Source: an uncultured Spartobacteria bacterium
Lineage (GTDB): Bacteria > Verrucomicrobiota > Verrucomicrobiia > Chthoniobacterales > Chthoniobacteraceae
Assembly: GCA_903933715.1 (NCBI GenBank)
Contig: CAIZLD010000024.1
Location: forward strand, 1 to 42,599
DNA: 42,599 nucleotides
Direction: 5' to 3'
The translations under genes and the position numbers were made by a program. This document shows, piece by piece, positions 1 through 42,498 of the stretch. Each line of letters starts with the position of its first letter. The first letter of the stretch is position 1. The notes beneath the pieces are model-generated. The model made no database searches, was not told the DNA's origin, and saw only the letters and a program-made list of their open reading frames with translations.

Positions 1-60
1 CCAGTAAAACACACCCCGCAGACTCTCATTCAATTCTGTCCAGTACCAGGGGCCCGATCA

Positions 61-284
61 GTTTGAAGCCCATAGCCGGTGGTTGAGCGAAGCGACACCA
101 CCGGTTCAATGCAAAACCGCGCCTCACCCCAAAGGGGTGGCAGAGCCATCGCCTCGTTTTCTGCCACCCCTTTGGGGTGAATTCTTTCCAACACCTCATC
201 CGGTGGTGTCGCTTCGCTCAACCACCGGCTATTCGCTGGCAACCCTCCGGGTTGTGGCGGCTTTTGAATGTCGATTCAGCCTAG
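61..284. repeat. Family 1 palindromic element, copy A
   Basis: This is a set of nested inverted repeats filling the stretch before hflX. An outer arm around 73-104 (GGTTGAGCGAAGCGACACC) is answered by its complement around 200-228. A perfect inner stem of 21 nt (124-144 with 160-180) closes a 15-nt loop at 145-159. The right end is GAATGTCGATTCAGCCTAG at 266-284; the matching left terminus is degenerate. The element lies 14 bp beyond the hflX stop codon, so it falls in the hflX 3' region. Related copies lie at 12581-12841, 31482-31673, 34426-34691 and 39564-39780. Open frames cross it on both strands, but only because the palindrome lacks stops. Bases 1-60 hold nothing I recognise. Confidence 0.85.
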
Positions 285-4939: not shown

Positions 4940-5067
4940 ACAACGATTTTAAAAAGAGAAGCCCGGAAAAAGAGGGGTGGAGAGTTTTTGGAAGGCTCAA
5001 GGGGGCGATCCATCCCTCTCCCTTTTCCTGGATTCCTGGTTTCTTAAAATTCGTGAACACGTCCTAG
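4940..5067. repeat. Family 3 palindromic element, divergent spmAB/gcvP region
   Basis: The right arm at 5021-5067 reads CCTGGATTCCTGGTTTC and then AATTCGTGAACACGTCCTAG. It matches the right arm of the complete copy at 8002-8168. The left arm (about 4943-4975) is degenerate. The element fills most of the gap between spmAB and gcvP and explains the spurious upstream extension of the spmAB frame. A short GGGG-ATT-CCCC hairpin follows at about 5082-5093. I see no glycine riboswitch before gcvP. Confidence 0.6.
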
Positions 5068-5136
5068 TTTACAGCATCCTGGGGGATTCCCCGATTTTGA
5101 TTTGATTTGAAACCCTTAACCTTTAACCATTAGGGA

Positions 5137-8004: not shown

Positions 8005-8168
8005 GACGTGTTGACGAATTTTTGAATTAAGAAGCCAGGAATCCAGGAAAAGGCAGAAGAGGAATCTGAGGGATCGTCATCAAGCGTTCCAAAACAAAAC
8101 CTCCATCACTTTTTTCCTGGCTTCCTGGTTTCCTAATTCACTTTTTTTAATTCGTGAACACGGCCTAG
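8002..8168. repeat. Family 3 palindromic element, complete copy
   Basis: This 167-bp inverted repeat has left end TAGGACGTGTTGACGAATT (8002-8020) and right end AATTCGTGAACACGGCCTAG (8149-8168). The arms continue inward as AAGCCAGGAATCCAGGAAAA and its near complement. The left end includes the gcvP stop codon; the right end CTAG (8165-8168) abuts a different repeat. Other copies or arms are at 4940-5067, 16817-16833 and 34710-34761. It resembles a MITE: terminal inverted repeats, no coding capacity, and ends at YTAG. Confidence 0.75.
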
Positions 8169-8227
8169 TGGGCTGTCACACGTTACGCGATGGGTAAAGA
8201 CATAAGCCCAGCCTCGTTCCCAATCTC
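8165..8227. repeat. Family 4 repeat end, GGCTGTCACACGTTACGCGA type, copy 1
   Basis: It starts at the CTAG that closes the family 3 element, and GGCTGTCACACGTTACGCGA begins at 8171. About 55 bp, running into CCTCGTTCCCAATCTC, are nearly identical to 42406-42461 near the other end of the window. It leads straight into the hairpin at 8215-8239. Confidence 0.7.
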
Positions 8228-12580: not shown

Positions 12581-12841
12581 GGCTGAATCGACATTCAGAT
12601 CGAGCCAAACCCAAAGGGTTTGAAGCCCATAGCCGGTGGTTGAGCGGAGCGACACCACCGGTTTCAATGCGAAACCACGTCTCACCCCAAAGGGGTGGCA
12701 GAAAACGAGGCGATGGCTCTGCCACCCCTTTGGGGTGAATTCTTTCCAACACCTCATCCGGTGGTGTCGCTTCGCTCAACCACCGGCTATTCGCTGGCAA
12801 CCTTCCGGGTTGCGGAGGCTTTGGAATGTCGATTCAGCCTA
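12581..12841. repeat. Family 1 palindromic element, copy B (loop inverted)
   Basis: The termini are GGCTGAATCGACATTC (12581-12596) and GAATGTCGATTCAGCCTA (12824-12841). The inner 21-nt arms (12682-12702 and 12718-12738) are identical to those of copy A, but the 15-nt loop AAACGAGGCGATGGC (12703-12717) is the exact reverse complement of the copy A loop. On the minus strand the pheA stop codon TAG (12841-12839) is the first three bases of the element. It occupies most of the gap 12512-12838; nothing else is recognised there. Confidence 0.88.
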
Positions 12842-13899
12842 AGCCGTCTGCGGATAGCTCCCCAGGATTTTCAGCAACGTGGTGCGCTTTTCCAATTCCG
12901 CGAGCGCTTCGACGACCCGGGCATCTTGTTCATGGCCCTCAATATCGACGAAAAAGAAATATTCCCAAGCTTTGCGCTTGGAAGGCCGGCTCTCGATCTT
13001 GCTCATCGAAATGCCCAGCCGCTCGAACGGCTCCAAAACGGAAAGGAGCGCGCCGCTTTTGTCATGCACGGCGAACATAAGCGAGGTCTTGTCGCGGCCG
13101 GTCGGCGGGCACGATTGCGGCCCGAGCACCAAAAAGCGGGTCGTGTTGTAAGAGGAATCCTGAATGGACGCCTCCAAGATATTAAGCCCGTAAAGTTCCG
13201 CCGCGAGCTTCCCCGCAATGGCGGCGACATGCGGCTCCTCGGCGGCGCGCTGGGCAGCCCGGGTATTGCTGGCATCCGGGACGATCTCCGCATTCGGGAA
13301 ATTGGAGCGCAGCCATTGGCGGCATTGGCCGATCGATTGCGGGTGGCTGTAGATCTTTTTAATCTCCTCGCGCGGGCACTTGGCCAAAAGGTTTTGCTCC
13401 ACCCGAAGCAGGATTTGAGCGCAAATCTTAAGCTCCGAATCCATGAACTCGTCGAGCGTATGCGTGACGGCCCCTTCGGTGGAGTTCTCGATTGGGACGA
13501 CCCCAAAATCGGCGGTTCCCCGGGAGACGACGCCAAACACTTCCGGGATGCTCATCTGGGGAACGTAGCTCACGCTGGCGCCGAATTTACTCCGGGCGGC
13601 CTCGTGGGTGTAGGTTCCAGCCGGGCCAAAGTAGGCAATTGCGAGCCCTTTCTCCAATGCATAGGAGGCCGACATGATCTCCCGGTAGATGGCCCGGATG
13701 GCAGACGCGGGCAGCCGCCCTTTGAGTTGGGCGTTCTTCTCAACCAAGGCGCTGAAAACCGCTTCCTCCCGGTCGGGGGCGAAAACGGAGCCGCCGTTCT
13801 GGCGTTTGATCTCGCCGATTTCATGCACCAGCTCGGCCCGTTGGTTGAGCAACTCTAAAAGCTGCGCATCCAAAGCATCGATTTTGTTACGGATGGGGG

Positions 13900-13909
<10 letters not shown>
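12839..13909 (-). CDS. pheA: Bifunctional chorismate mutase / prephenate dehydratase (P-protein)
   Basis: PheA turns chorismate into prephenate and then phenylpyruvate in phenylalanine synthesis. Residues 1-85 form the AroQ chorismate mutase helix bundle (IRNKIDALDAQLLELLNQRA). The prephenate dehydratase domain follows (AYFGPAGTYTHEAARSKFG, DFGVVPIENSTEGAVTHTLD, with the catalytic TTRF in SYNTTRFLVLG). A C-terminal ACT domain with ESRPSKRKAWEYFFFVD binds phenylalanine for feedback inhibition. The 356-residue length is normal. Its ATG lies inside scpB (10-nt overlap), so translation is probably coupled. The stop TAG is supplied by the terminal repeat of element copy B. I see no attenuator leader peptide. 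Confidence 0.96.
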
Positions 13910-14671: not shown

Positions 14672-14811
14672 ATTGCGGATTGCGGATTGCGGATTGCGGA
14701 TTGCGGATTGCGGATTGCGGATTGCGGATTGCGGATTGCGGATTGCGGATTGCGGATTGCGGATTGCGGATTGGGGATTGCAGATTGGGGATTGGGGATT
14801 GGGGATTGGGG
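14672..14811. repeat. Heptanucleotide tandem repeat, 20 units
   Basis: Twenty uninterrupted 7-bp units span 140 bp. The first 14 (14672-14769) are perfect ATTGCGG; the last six are ATTGGGG, with one ATTGCAG. Variants collect at the end away from scpB, which suggests recent expansion on the scpB side. The array starts 47 bp upstream of the scpB ATG. Open frames through it reading IADCGLR repeatedly are a by-product of the 21-bp reading period. The stretch 14626-14943 otherwise holds only the left repeat of the RAYT element. Confidence 0.97.
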
Positions 14812-14840: not shown

Positions 14841-14934
14841 GCCGGGCTTCAGCCGGCGTTCTTCCGCTTTGCCACCGGCTTCAGCCGGTGGTTAGCTTGG
14901 GCTCCATCTCCCCAGCCGGCTTCAGCCGGGCTTC
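14841..14934 (+). repeat. Left 94-bp triple palindrome of the RAYT element
   Basis: Three palindromes are strung together: GCCGGGCTTCAGCCGGC, CCACCGGCTTCAGCCGGTGG and AGCCGGCTTCAGCCGGGCT. The whole unit is repeated in inverse orientation at 15387-15480 with about 90% identity and the same length. Such GC-rich imperfect palindromes are the REP-type substrates of RAYT transposases. Confidence 0.9.
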
Positions 14935-14943
14935 TCGACCACC

Positions 14944-15372
14944 CTACAAATCGCCCAGCCCCACATTCATCTCCAGCCGCTTCATCACATTGCCGCATCG
15001 GTGGTGCTCTTTCTGATTGGCAACATACTCCAAAACCCAGCCCATCTGCTTCTTGCCAAAGCTGACGACTCCAAATCCCCGCTGCCATTCGAGCGCCCGG
15101 TAGCGTTCCCGGGCGTTCATTTCCCTTGAGCAAGCCCCTTTCAACTCCCCCACCAAATCGCTGATGCAGATCAGCGGTTCGATCTGGATCACCAGATGCA
15201 CATGCGTCGCGGTTCCTCCAATGCCATAAAAATAGACTCCTTTGGTTTCAATGCACCGCCGCTTGATAAATTGGTGGACTTGCGGCTCCAGCTTTTCACT
15301 GAGCAATGCTTGATCCTCCTTAGTGTGCCAGTTTAGATGGATGAACAGTTCGTGAAAGATGTGGCTCGCCAT
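14944..15372 (-). CDS. REP-associated tyrosine transposase (Y1/HUH, IS200-like)
   Basis: This is a single-domain HUH endonuclease that would nick and rejoin single-stranded DNA at hairpins. The HUH motif is THVHL (His57, His59) after the GIGGTATHVH strand, and the catalytic tyrosine is Tyr116 in WVLEYVANQKEHH, whose NQxEHH tail is typical of IS200-like proteins. At 142 residues it appears full length, with no frameshift. It lies exactly inside the inverted palindromes at 14841-14934 and 15387-15480. In the RAYT family, proteins act on flanking REP palindromes rather than moving as classic insertion sequences. Activity cannot be judged from sequence, but every catalytic residue is present. The stop is TAG. 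Confidence 0.9.
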   Translation of the reverse strand: MASHIFHELFIHLNWHTKEDQALLSEKLEPQVHQFIKRRCIETKGVYFYGIGGTATHVHLVIQIEPLICISDLVGELKGACSREMNARERYRALEWQRGFGVVSFGKKQMGWVLEYVANQKEHHRCGNVMKRLEMNVGLGDL

Positions 15373-15386
15373 AGCTGTTTAGCGGA

Positions 15387-15480
15387 GAAGCCCGGCTTAA
15401 GCCGGCTGGGGAGATGGTGAGCCAAGCTAACCACCGGCTGAAGCCGGTGGCAAAGCTAAAAATGCCGGCTAAAGCCCGGC
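15387..15480 (-). repeat. Right 94-bp triple palindrome of the RAYT element
   Basis: This is the inverted counterpart of 14841-14934, lying 14 bp upstream of the transposase ATG. It may include the promoter of the transposase. The central palindrome CCACCGGCTGAAGCCGGTGG is identical between the two arms; differences lie in the outer two palindromes. Confidence 0.9.
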
Positions 15481-31396: not shown

Positions 31397-31475
31397 GAGC
31401 GGTTCTCTGTGGGCGGAACGGGAGACCGAGGCGGTGATTATACCAGCCTTGCTGTGAGCGGTTCTCTGTGGGCGG
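31397..31475. repeat. 20-bp direct repeat upstream of cimA
   Basis: GAGCGGTTCTCTGTGGGCGG occurs perfectly at 31397-31416 and again at 31456-31475, 59 bp apart. The intervening bases are unique. It lies about 100 bp upstream of the cimA ATG and beside family 1 copy D. It may be a duplication left by an insertion, or an operator pair. Confidence 0.75.
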
Positions 31476-31481
31476 TTTTCT

Positions 31482-31673
31482 GAATCCGAAGGATTCATAG
31501 CCGATAGCCGGGGGTTGAGCAGAGCGATACCCCCGGAAAACCAAAGCAAAACGCTTCACCCCAACGGGGTGGCAGAAAATGCAATCTCTGCCACCCCGTT
31601 GGGGTGAAGCCGTTGTTGGTGTGGGATCCGGTGGTGTCGGCGCGTGACCGCGCCTCAACCACCGGCTATCGGC
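31482..31673. repeat. Family 1 palindromic element, copy D
   Basis: It starts with the hairpin GAATCC-GAA-GGATTC, then CCGATAGCCGG, mirrored by CCGGCTATCGG ending at 31673. The inner stem CACCCCAACGGGGTGGCAGA and its complement surround a short loop. The outer right arm is diverged (GGTGTCGGCGCGTGACCGCG). The 31300-32008 gap holds, in order, a direct repeat, this element, a family 2 element, a small GTGACGCG/CGCGTCAC stem (31906-31957) and the glutamine synthetase terminator. Confidence 0.75.
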
Positions 31674-31676
31674 TTT

Positions 31677-31841
31677 AGAGCAACTGCCAAAATCTCTTTC
31701 CGAAAAGAGTGCGGCGGCACGGGTCATCGCGCTGCGTTGCTCGCTCGGGCAGTAGGAAACTACAGCCGCTTCGCTCGCGCCTTGCGCGCTAACCCGTGGC
31801 GCTCGCATCTTTATCCGGAAATTTCTTTTGGCAGTTGCTCT
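31677..31841. repeat. Family 2 palindromic element
   Basis: Left end AGAGCAACTGCCAAAATCTC (31677-31696) is mirrored by TTGGCAGTTGCTCT ending at 31841. Inside, ACGGGT and ACCCGT form a second arm, and the centre is GTAG-GAAA-CTAC, a hairpin with a GNRA-type loop. One end of the same family appears at 39495-39520, also beside a family 1 element. Confidence 0.7.
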
Positions 31842-32008
31842 AAACCCTTACGGGTTTCCGTTTTGGCGGAAATCGACAATGGTAACCTCGGCGCGGTACA
31901 AAAAAGTGACGCGGCCTTTATGTACTTCCGATCGGGTTCCACGTCAGGTCGCGTCACTAAATGTATCGGTTTGCCCGGGTTCAGCGGATGTCTCGCCGTT
32001 TTGTTGCC

Positions 32009-34425: not shown

Positions 34426-34691
34426 CTAGGCTGAATCGACATTCAGATCGAGCCAAACCCAAAGGGTTTGAAGCCGATAGCCGGTGGTTGAGCGAAGCGA
34501 CACCACCGGTTCGATGCAAAACTGCGCTTCACCTCAAAGAGGTGGCAGAGAGCATTGCCTCGTTTTCTGCCACCCCCTTTGGGGTGAATTCTTCCAATGC
34601 CTTATCCGGTGGTGTCGCTAACGCTCAACCACCGGCTATTCGCTGGCAACCCTCCGGGTTGCGGCGGCTTTCGAATGTCGATTCAGCCTAG
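34426..34691. repeat. Family 1 palindromic element, copy C (complete)
   Basis: This is the best-preserved copy, 266 bp. Perfect 19-bp terminal inverted repeats CTAGGCTGAATCGACATTC (34426-34444) and its complement (34673-34691) both end in CTAG. Inside are small tip hairpins (AACCCAAAGGGTTT, ACCCTCCGGGTT), the main stem with GGTTGAGCGAAGCGACACC, and the central CACCCC-type stem, slightly degenerate. The loop orientation matches copy A. It separates glnN from ybgC. CTAG could be a 4-bp target duplication or part of the terminus. Confidence 0.88.
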
Positions 34692-34709: not shown

Positions 34710-34761
34710 CCTTTTTTCCTGGCTTCTTAATTCATTTCTAAAAAATCGTAAACACCGCCTA
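34710..34761. repeat. Family 3 arm at the ybgC stop codon
   Basis: TTTTTTCCTGGCTTCTTAAT then AATCGTAAACACCGCCTA form one arm of a family 3 element. On the minus strand the ybgC stop TAG (34761-34759) continues as TAGGCGGTGTTTACGATT. The other arm is absent; copy C of family 1 lies immediately on that side. Confidence 0.65.
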
Positions 34762-35190
34762 TGAGCTCTGTTTTTTCAAATGCGCAAAACGGGTCGCCCA
34801 TTCCGCCGGGAGCCGCAACGGTTTGCCCGCGGGCATCTGGACAATGGCCAGCATCTGGCGGGAGGTGACCATCAGCGCGCCGTCGCTCGGGCGAACGATT
34901 TCGAATGAACACCAAAAACGGCTCCGCTCCACGGTTTCGAGTTTACCGTGAACCGTCAATTTGTCCCAGAGGACGGCGGGGCGCTTGTAGTCGATCTCGG
35001 TGCGGACGACGACCGGAAATTGCTGTTCCTTGGCCATGGTTGTAAATCCCATCCCGAGCTGTTCGGCCAGGTAGGTCCGGGCCATTTCAATGAACCGCAG
35101 GTAGGCGAGATTGTGGACCACTCCGCCGCAATCGGTGTCAAAGAACATCACCTGCACTTCGGTTTCGATGGTTGGGGTTTCAGGAGCCAT
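34759..35190 (-). CDS. YbgC-like acyl-CoA thioesterase (hotdog fold)
   Basis: This is a single-domain hotdog thioesterase of 143 residues that hydrolyses acyl-CoA or related thioesters in the cytoplasm. The active-site signature MFFDTDCGGVVHNLAYLRFIEMAR (residues 15-38, with Asp18/Asp20) is that of the YbgC/4-hydroxybenzoyl-CoA thioesterase family; the rest (VVVRTEIDYKRPAVLWDKLTV) is the standard beta sheet. No tol-pal genes are near, so the Tol-linked role of E. coli YbgC is not indicated. I chose ATG 35190, shared head to head with an ATG of the GT2 frame in CCATGG. Its stop codon is the tip of a family 3 repeat. Confidence 0.88.
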   Translation of the reverse strand: MAPETPTIETEVQVMFFDTDCGGVVHNLAYLRFIEMARTYLAEQLGMGFTTMAKEQQFPVVVRTEIDYKRPAVLWDKLTVHGKLETVERSRFWCSFEIVRPSDGALMVTSRQMLAIVQMPAGKPLRLPAEWATRFAHLKKQSS

Positions 35191-39494: not shown

Positions 39495-39520
39495 CGGAAA
39501 GAGATTTTGGCAGTTGCTCT
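39495..39520. repeat. Family 2 terminal repeat
   Basis: GGAAAGAGATTTTGGCAGTT then GCTCT is the end of the family seen complete at 31677-31841. Its partner arm is not visible within the gap. Confidence 0.6.
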
Positions 39521-39563
39521 ATATAATTCCCACAATGATTCGGAGCAGGTGCAGGGAAATTTT

Positions 39564-39780
39564 AACCCAAGGGTTACAGCATATAGCCGGGGGTTGAGCG
39601 AAGCGACACCCCCGGTATGGCAAAGCAAACGTTGACCCCGGAGGGGTCGCAGAAAATTGGCGGGATTTGTTTACAGAGTTTCTGCCACCCCTTGCTTCGG
39701 GGTGAATTCGTTTTGCGATCATTCCGGGGGTGTCGCTTCGCTCAACCCCCGGCTACTCGCTTGCATCCCTTGGGGATGCC
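39564..39780. repeat. Family 1 palindromic element, copy E
   Basis: Tip hairpin AACCCAAGGGTT, main arm GGGTTGAGCGAAGCGACACC and its complement near 39729-39752, and an imperfect central stem GACCCCGGAGGGGTCGCAGA. The loop is enlarged. It ends with GCATCCCTTGGGGATGC. Sequence has drifted furthest from copy C, but the arms still pair, showing compensated change. It separates convergent ymdB and rpsT, filling 39430-39801 together with the family 2 end. Confidence 0.78.
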
Positions 39781-39801
39781 GATCCCGGCGGCGGATTTTT
39801 T

Positions 39802-42405: not shown

Positions 42406-42498
42406 GGCTGTCACACGTTACGCGATGGGAAAGACACAAGCCCAACCTCGTTCCCAATCTCGTTCCTGTTTAGCCCGCAGGGCTGAGGGTAAGGAACG
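42406..42498. repeat. Family 4 repeat, copy 2
   Basis: GGCTGTCACACGTTACGCGA begins at 42406 and runs with near identity to 8171-8227, followed by a different hairpin: CGTTCCT (42461) with AGGAACG (42498) and inner AGCCC-GCA-GGGCT. As in copy 1, TAG stands directly before it (TTAGGCTG). The last 100 bp of the window hold nothing else I recognise. Confidence 0.7.

Follow-up and report, generated by a model that had tools for sequence, protein, structure and literature searches.

We analysed a stretch of 42,599 nucleotides (the window) from the draft assembly of an uncultured Spartobacteria bacterium, a genome of 2.8 Mb in 77 contigs with a GC content of 60%, in which five copies of a palindromic repeat are present, named A to E in order of position (Table 1). 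Copy D sits in a CTAG context, with TA at 34427-34428 and 34689-34690 and CTAG on either side, and has exact matches to a terminal inverted repeat (TIR) at 34430-34444 and 34673-34687. Copy B abuts a pheA-like gene on the minus strand, whose TAG stop codon consists of the right end of the copy plus TA. The original prediction, made from the sequence of the window, had described all five copies as one family of nested palindromes with 19-bp CTAG-ended terminal repeats; its observations were partly confirmed and its interpretation partly supported, in that a structured repeat family, termini like those of mobile elements and compensatory changes are all present, but a single family with common terminal repeats is not. 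The five loci are genuine, with E values of 2e-13 to 4e-22 for the half-copies under an independently built model and no further match in the window, and so is the common layout of hairpin, GGTTGAGCG..GACACC arm and central stem, the core of the window copies folding at z of about -13 to -15 relative to dinucleotide shuffles. The paired ends GGCTGAATCGACATTC ... GAATGTCGATTCAGCC occur in only two of the five copies (12581-12839 and 34429-34688): of the loci as first delimited, 34426-34691 and 12581-12841 have pairs, 61-284 has the right end only, and 31482-31673 and 39564-39780 have none. Since only some window copies carry ends, the supposed five-copy family resolves into two layers of different origin, the terminal repeats belonging to an IS5/IS427-type element that surrounds some copies only.

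Table 1. Repeat copies, their parts and the gene adjoining copy B, in window coordinates (bit scores are those of covariance model R1).
Feature	Position	Strand	Description
Copy A	61..281	+	Putative MITE without left TIR; right TIR 266-281
Copy A left unit	49..149	+	73.1 bits
Copy A right unit	155..261	-	92.7 bits
Copy B	12581..12839	+	Putative complete MITE; ends TTG... / ...CTAA
Copy B left unit	12600..12707	+	97.9 bits
Copy B right unit	12713..12819	-	88.2 bits
Chorismate mutase/prephenate dehydratase gene (pheA-like)	12839..13909	-	Full-length, through ACT domain; stop codon is putative MITE insertion site
Copy C	31482..31673	+	REP-like dimer without TIRs; arms unlike, each self-complementary
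Copy C left unit	31475..31581	+	90.4 bits
Copy C right unit	31582..31697	-	61.6 bits
Copy D	34429..34688	+	Putative complete MITE: TIR, REP-like dimer, TIR
Copy D left TIR, IS5/IS427-type	34429..34444	+	GGCTGAATCGACATTC
Copy D left three-hairpin unit	34448..34554	+	91.3 bits
Copy D right three-hairpin unit, inverted	34561..34668	-	80.8 bits
Copy D right TIR	34673..34688	-
Copy E	39564..39780	+	REP-like dimer without TIRs
Copy E left unit	39557..39658	+	84.2 bits
Copy E right unit	39676..39785	-	87.7 bits

Each of the five copies has at its core two units of about 108 nt joined head to head as a dimer, and in each unit a first hairpin (hp1, loop CCNNNGG), an NTAG tag, a second hairpin (hp2), about 20 nt and a third hairpin (hp3) follow one another. 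A covariance model, R1, built from 30 units of other genomes only, gave exactly ten matches in the window, namely the plus and minus halves of the five copies and nothing else, and detected the core in 34 of 40 Chthoniobacteraceae genomes (up to 97 scored per genome). The hp2 sequence (CCGGKGGTTGAGCGNAGCGAYACCMCCGG) occurs 10-54 times in many genomes of this family that have almost no ends, and three genomes of the same genus contain 21-44 core matches and 0-1 end matches, showing that the core exists without the ends. No Rfam family covers the repeat at the gathering threshold, a tRNA being the sole match to these models in the window.

The covariance-model search that had been proposed for the repeat was thus positive, and the covariation that it brought out is strong. 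In the 30-unit alignment 94.0% of the cells were paired, compared with 81.9% after shuffling and 33-52% when the structure was slid along the alignment, a comparison that favours the drawn structure over its slid versions to some degree since it was drawn from the consensus of the same units. Cells changed on both sides numbered 87, against 30 after shuffling, and covariation was found in hp1, hp2 and hp3 separately, the choice of units by their hp2 pattern biasing hp2 and leaving hp1 and hp3 unaffected. There is strong support from these compensatory changes for three local hairpins as the structure that is probably conserved, in preference to long-range pairing of the arms. The suggestion that the arms change together, as if their pairing were selected, held inside each arm, which forms a hairpin of its own, and failed between arms. 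Long-range pairing was rejected as a conserved structure on the position of the covariation in the local hairpins and on copy C, in which the left arm (CCGGGGG..CCCCCGG) and the right arm (CCGGTGG..CCACCGG) differ.

The palindromic unit, its many dispersed copies and their arrangement in inverted doublets are features of REP and REPIN sequences, and in five genomes, including that of the window, inverted units stand on both sides of a gene for a Y1 tyrosine transposase of the IS200/IS605 type (G005, G039, G031, G036 and C67 of the own genome). This neighbouring transposase passes the NCBIfam IS200 model (NF033573, 72 bits, cut-off 55) and matches the RAYT model weakly (NF047646, 21 bits against a cut-off of 80), and for this reason we call the core REP/REPIN-like rather than a proven RAYT element. 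It shares with REPINs and GTAG-tagged REPs (PMC3116915, PMC2817692, PMC3733652) the inverted doublets, the compensatory hairpins, the units flanking Y1 genes, the sites 3' of genes and possibly the tag, here in the form NTAG, but each of its units, about 108 nt long, comprises three hairpins where theirs has one, its neighbouring transposase scores as IS200/IS605 and not as NCBIfam RAYT, and many of its copies are enclosed by the ends of a DDE transposon. The tag before hp2 is GTAG in 14 of 62 units and NTAG in 41 of 62, and is exactly GTAG in Chthoniobacter flavus; another member of the Verrucomicrobia, O. terrae, has been described as carrying many GTAG repeats (PMC3116915, PMC2817692, PMC3733652). 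The arrangement around the Y1 genes also recalls TIRtrons, in which inverted repeats belonging to small families border a Y1 transposase gene (PMC3733652): in both, a Y1 gene lies between inverted repeat units that are also found dispersed, but the units described here are more numerous and common to a whole bacterial family.

The outer layer has a different distribution. Inverted repeats of the form TA(G)GCTGAATCGACATTC enclose the two paired window copies and about 70 copies in the genome, a number that could only be estimated because many contigs end within a copy. At up to two mismatches the own genome contains 141 end sites, and the reversed control contains none. We recovered 49 paired copies, of which 43 are about 260 bp long with a mean pairwise identity of 86%; like MITEs, they are short, non-coding and dispersed. 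In a scan of 213 genomes of the order, a high copy number was confined to the own genome, which had 127 end sites at one mismatch; C. flavus (G019) had a modest 17, and the other genomes of the same genus 0-1. TA is present on both flanks in 33 of the 49 paired copies, and among these 33 the left TA is preceded by C or T in 28 and the right TA is always followed by A or G, which gives a target of YTAR. A TA duplication within YTAR is what is expected of IS5/IS427-type MITEs, duplications of 2 and 4 bp both being possible from the 33 of 49 copies. We rejected a 4-bp CTAG duplication, as the base immediately within the left end matches the one beyond the right end in 16 of 33 copies, no more often than by chance; judging from these flanks, the duplication may be TA only, or a YTAR that was altered later.

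The paired copies differ from one another in the orientation of their inner parts. Among 43 scorable copies, the middle segment has the same orientation relative to the tips in 27 and is flipped in 16, and the inner loop has one orientation relative to the middle segment in 20 copies and the other in 25; two copies carry the same tip on both sides, and the 57 nt at window positions 124-180 are the exact reverse complement of those at 12682-12738. The roughly 50 copies in this one genome are thus a set with independent nested inversions. Every arm being a palindrome, exchange between the arms of one copy or of different copies, by recombination or template switching, would flip segments, and we propose that such events at the arms of the nested palindrome flipped the middle and inner segments independently. 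Inversion has been reported for Correia elements, according to a title cited in PMC10969869. Size variants were also seen, namely a 100-bp copy with tips only (L206:264-363), a 193-bp copy with one half lost (L187:701-893) and an enlarged copy of 332 bp (L201:752-1083), and these fit expectation since recombination between nested arms would give them. The independent flips and the two same-tip copies indicate exchange between arms, and such template switching or gene conversion, rather than selection for pairing, might have produced the covariation. We consider this rather unlikely as the main cause, since the covariation lies within each small hairpin of single units, is found in other genomes, and coexists in copy C with arms that differ and yet are each self-paired, but such exchange could still contribute inside a short hairpin.

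A source for the ends was found by the proposed search for an insertion sequence (IS) with matching termini. An IS of about 826 bp in the genome of a relative (G072, L053:1500-2325) has exactly matching ends, two exact 15-bp end matches spanning 824 bp, and contains two ORFs with DUF4096 and DDE_Tnp_1 domains that both exceed the NCBIfam IS5_3 cut-off. At least 11 further loci have end pairs 841-868 bp apart that enclose homologous transposase ORFs (50-72% identical), and an exact end search of named genomes had Chthoniobacter and many Alpha- and Betaproteobacteria among the matches listed. Elements of the IS427 group are 832-865 bp long, mostly make 2-bp duplications and in some cases have two overlapping ORFs (PMC3281130). 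The G072 element and the end pairs around homologous transposases, together with these published features, identify the ends as those of an IS5/IS427-type IS, and the repeat copies, like MITEs of this type, have TIRs identical to those of autonomous members of the group, found on the G072 element and as end pairs in many genomes. The resemblance to the IS427 group of the IS5 family (e.g. IS1248, ISPaes1; PMC3281130) comprises the same TIRs on complete ISs, a two-ORF DUF4096/DDE_Tnp_1 transposase, a length of about 826-870 bp and a TA target; the difference is that the element described here contains no transposase sequence and has a host REP-like dimer as its interior. The original prediction was correct in stating that matching ends are absent from the transposases of the window, and a search of the own draft assembly for the cognate transposase gave no close match at E<=1e-12, suggesting that the partner was lost, was unassembled or is divergent. 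The TA flanks had also suggested an IS630/Tc1-mariner parentage, which we rejected because the only PF13358 (IS630-type) gene of the genome has other ends. Two viral contigs (L178, L179) carry an IS end and a fragment of a transposase ORF at the contig end; this type of IS may travel on phages, or these contigs may be host-derived.

The insertion sites show a preference for the ends of genes. With a simple gene finder based on codon usage, 18 element ends coincided with the last base of the flanking gene (distance -1) and none lay at -6, and when the longest frame entering the element was followed, 16 of 26 frames had their stop exactly at base 1 of the element and a further one at base 2. As A or G follows the far TA in all 33 TA-flanked copies, the codon present before insertion would have been TAA or TAG in such genes, and these junctions indicate that the element is to be regarded as an occupant of native stop codons, which it re-creates. 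Copies at stop codons were in excess (17 of 49, against 11 of 69 non-genic YTAR sites in the window, binomial p = 0.001), and gene 3' ends outnumbered 5' ends within 400 bp of the copies (59 to 22, against 46 to 46 for control YTAR sites, Fisher p = 0.003), both p-values being rough because the controls were drawn from a single 42.6-kb window with a home-made gene finder. The claim that all five window copies lie in 3' regions of genes was upheld for the locus at 12581-12841, which supplies a stop codon, and for that at 61-284, which lies 15 bp past a gene for an HflX-type GTPase; each of the other three is bordered on one side by a gene 3' end, and not always by that of the nearest gene. At another locus (L016:1490-1775), a copy sits at a CTAG common to two convergent genes, with the TAG of each gene exactly at one end of the element, and a search of the genus with the joined flanks of this copy for a direct empty site yielded nothing beyond a 73% match, not syntenic, to one gene of G037.

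The predominance of gene 3' ends around the copies and the strong hairpins directly past stop codons could instead mean that the copies are mainly regulatory RNA structures, terminators or stabilisers of the 3' UTR, which were selected at gene ends and whose mobility is incidental. We regard this as improbable: the choice of target together with purifying selection against other sites explains the precise TA and stop-codon junctions, the copies differ from one another by flips, and their number is specific to the genome.

We conclude from the sequences compared here that the complete copies are very probably non-autonomous MITEs of the IS5 family, IS427 type, whose cargo is a REP-like dimer of the host lineage that was captured and amplified by the ends. 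In this model, copies C and E would represent the older REP-like element alone, a unit that is widespread in the family without IS ends; the IS ends would have captured one such dimer and amplified it to about 70 places in the genome. Most likely, the transposase of a two-ORF IS (about 830-870 bp, with 16-bp ends GGCTGAATCGACATTC) acted in trans, and would have excised the element and reinserted it at YTAR sites, so that TA remained on each side. At a GC content of 60%, many of the tolerable YTAR sites would be TAA or TAG stop codons, and since insertion into these keeps the stop codon, such copies would survive. This amounts to a rule for harmless insertion, by which a TA-targeting element enters stop codons and restores them.

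The same ends were found around unrelated interiors. In C. flavus, ends like those of the own genome surround a dimer of other three-hairpin units, with a GTAG tag on hp2 (GTAGCCGTGGACTTTAGTCCACGG); this dimer is also found without ends, and a Y1 gene of C. flavus is flanked by that organism's own units on the same plan. In Alphaproteobacteria the ends enclose other palindromic dimers (147, 9 and 246 pattern hits in G213, G214 and G215, respectively), and each of these three genomes has dimer copies both with and without ends nearby. Examples from Sphingomonas and Chelatococcus (L168, L169) look alike and were less tested. The interiors between ends fold far better than shuffles (z from -6 to -15), except those of 138-bp and 92-bp derivatives, which means that not every short derivative carries a dimer. 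The presence of unrelated dimers within the same ends in C. flavus and at least three Alphaproteobacteria suggests that capture seems to be recurrent. A broader statement, that one type of IS5-family terminus repeatedly captures the REP-like dimer of its host in Verrucomicrobiota and Alphaproteobacteria, so forming 'wrapped REPINs' that unite two systems of mobility, with DDE ends outside, Y1-type hairpins inside and internal segments that can flip, could equally well prove right or wrong.

An origin in the opposite direction is also conceivable, in which the ends of an ancient IS5-type MITE disappeared from most lineages and the palindromic core that stayed behind was later used by Y1 transposases. 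Copies with one end or damaged ends do occur (copy A; L329), and the loss of ends leaving REP-like remnants has been described for QMITE2 of Coxiella (PMC10969869). This course of events appears very improbable, however, as the core is present in 34 of 40 genomes and the ends in few, C. flavus and the Alphaproteobacteria have other cores within the same ends as well as many REP-only copies, and the cores flank Y1 genes. Finally, all copies could belong to one self-contained REP/REPIN family that depends for its movement on a Y1 (IS200/IS605-type) transposase alone, with the 19-bp ends as its outermost conserved part. This would agree with the units that flank Y1 genes, also in the own genome, and with the NTAG tag that precedes hp2, but the existence of an IS with identical ends largely refutes it, and it is hardly credible, because cores in sister genomes lack the ends, which in several phyla belong to an IS of the unrelated DDE type, and because TA stands on both sides of 33 of 49 copies, whereas Y1 transposons leave no TA duplication.

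Capture of a host dimer by IS ends would set these elements apart from known bacterial MITEs. Like the Correia/NEMIS, RUP and Nezha elements (PMC3733652, PMC10969869), they are short, non-coding, bounded by TIRs, high in copy number and adjacent to genes, but those elements are mostly described as degenerate ISs, whereas the ones described here carry an independent REP-like repeat and often occupy stop codons. The usual explanation of a bacterial MITE is an IS that has lost its transposase, and REPs are treated as unconnected elements that depend on tyrosine transposases; the two are joined here. A literature search returned no report of IS5-type ends around REPs or of such MITEs in Verrucomicrobiota, an absence that is weak evidence. 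If recurrent capture is general, it would be a route of MITE birth other than IS decay, and the presence of DDE-transposon ends around unrelated host REP dimers in at least five genomes of two phyla makes the origin of MITE interiors directly testable.

Several other repeats were noted in the window. An IS200/IS605-type Y1 gene at 14944-15372 has flanks (14866-14936 and 15385-15456) with near-perfect inverted hairpin blocks of 33 and 35 bp (CCACCGGCTTCAGCCGGTGG, CAGCCGGCTTCAGCCGG), and is a second, different TIRtron/REPtron-like element; beside it, at 14672-14811, lies a tandem array of about 20 units of the 7-mers ATTGCGG and ATTGGGG. Another inverted repeat, TAGAGCAACTGCCAAAATCTCTTTCC, which is TA-ended and MITE-like, occurs at 31671-31709 and 31809-31847 and also at about 39497-39523, and elsewhere adjoins end-bearing copies (L004, L207). 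A repeat TTCGTGAACACGGCCTAGT / GGCTGTCACACGTTACGCGATGGGTAAAGACA is found at 5041-5068, 8142-8227, 34736-34763 and 42406-42461 and often abuts the putative MITE copies at CTAG (L010, L012, L189, L192, L199, L211), where the target sites are possibly nested.
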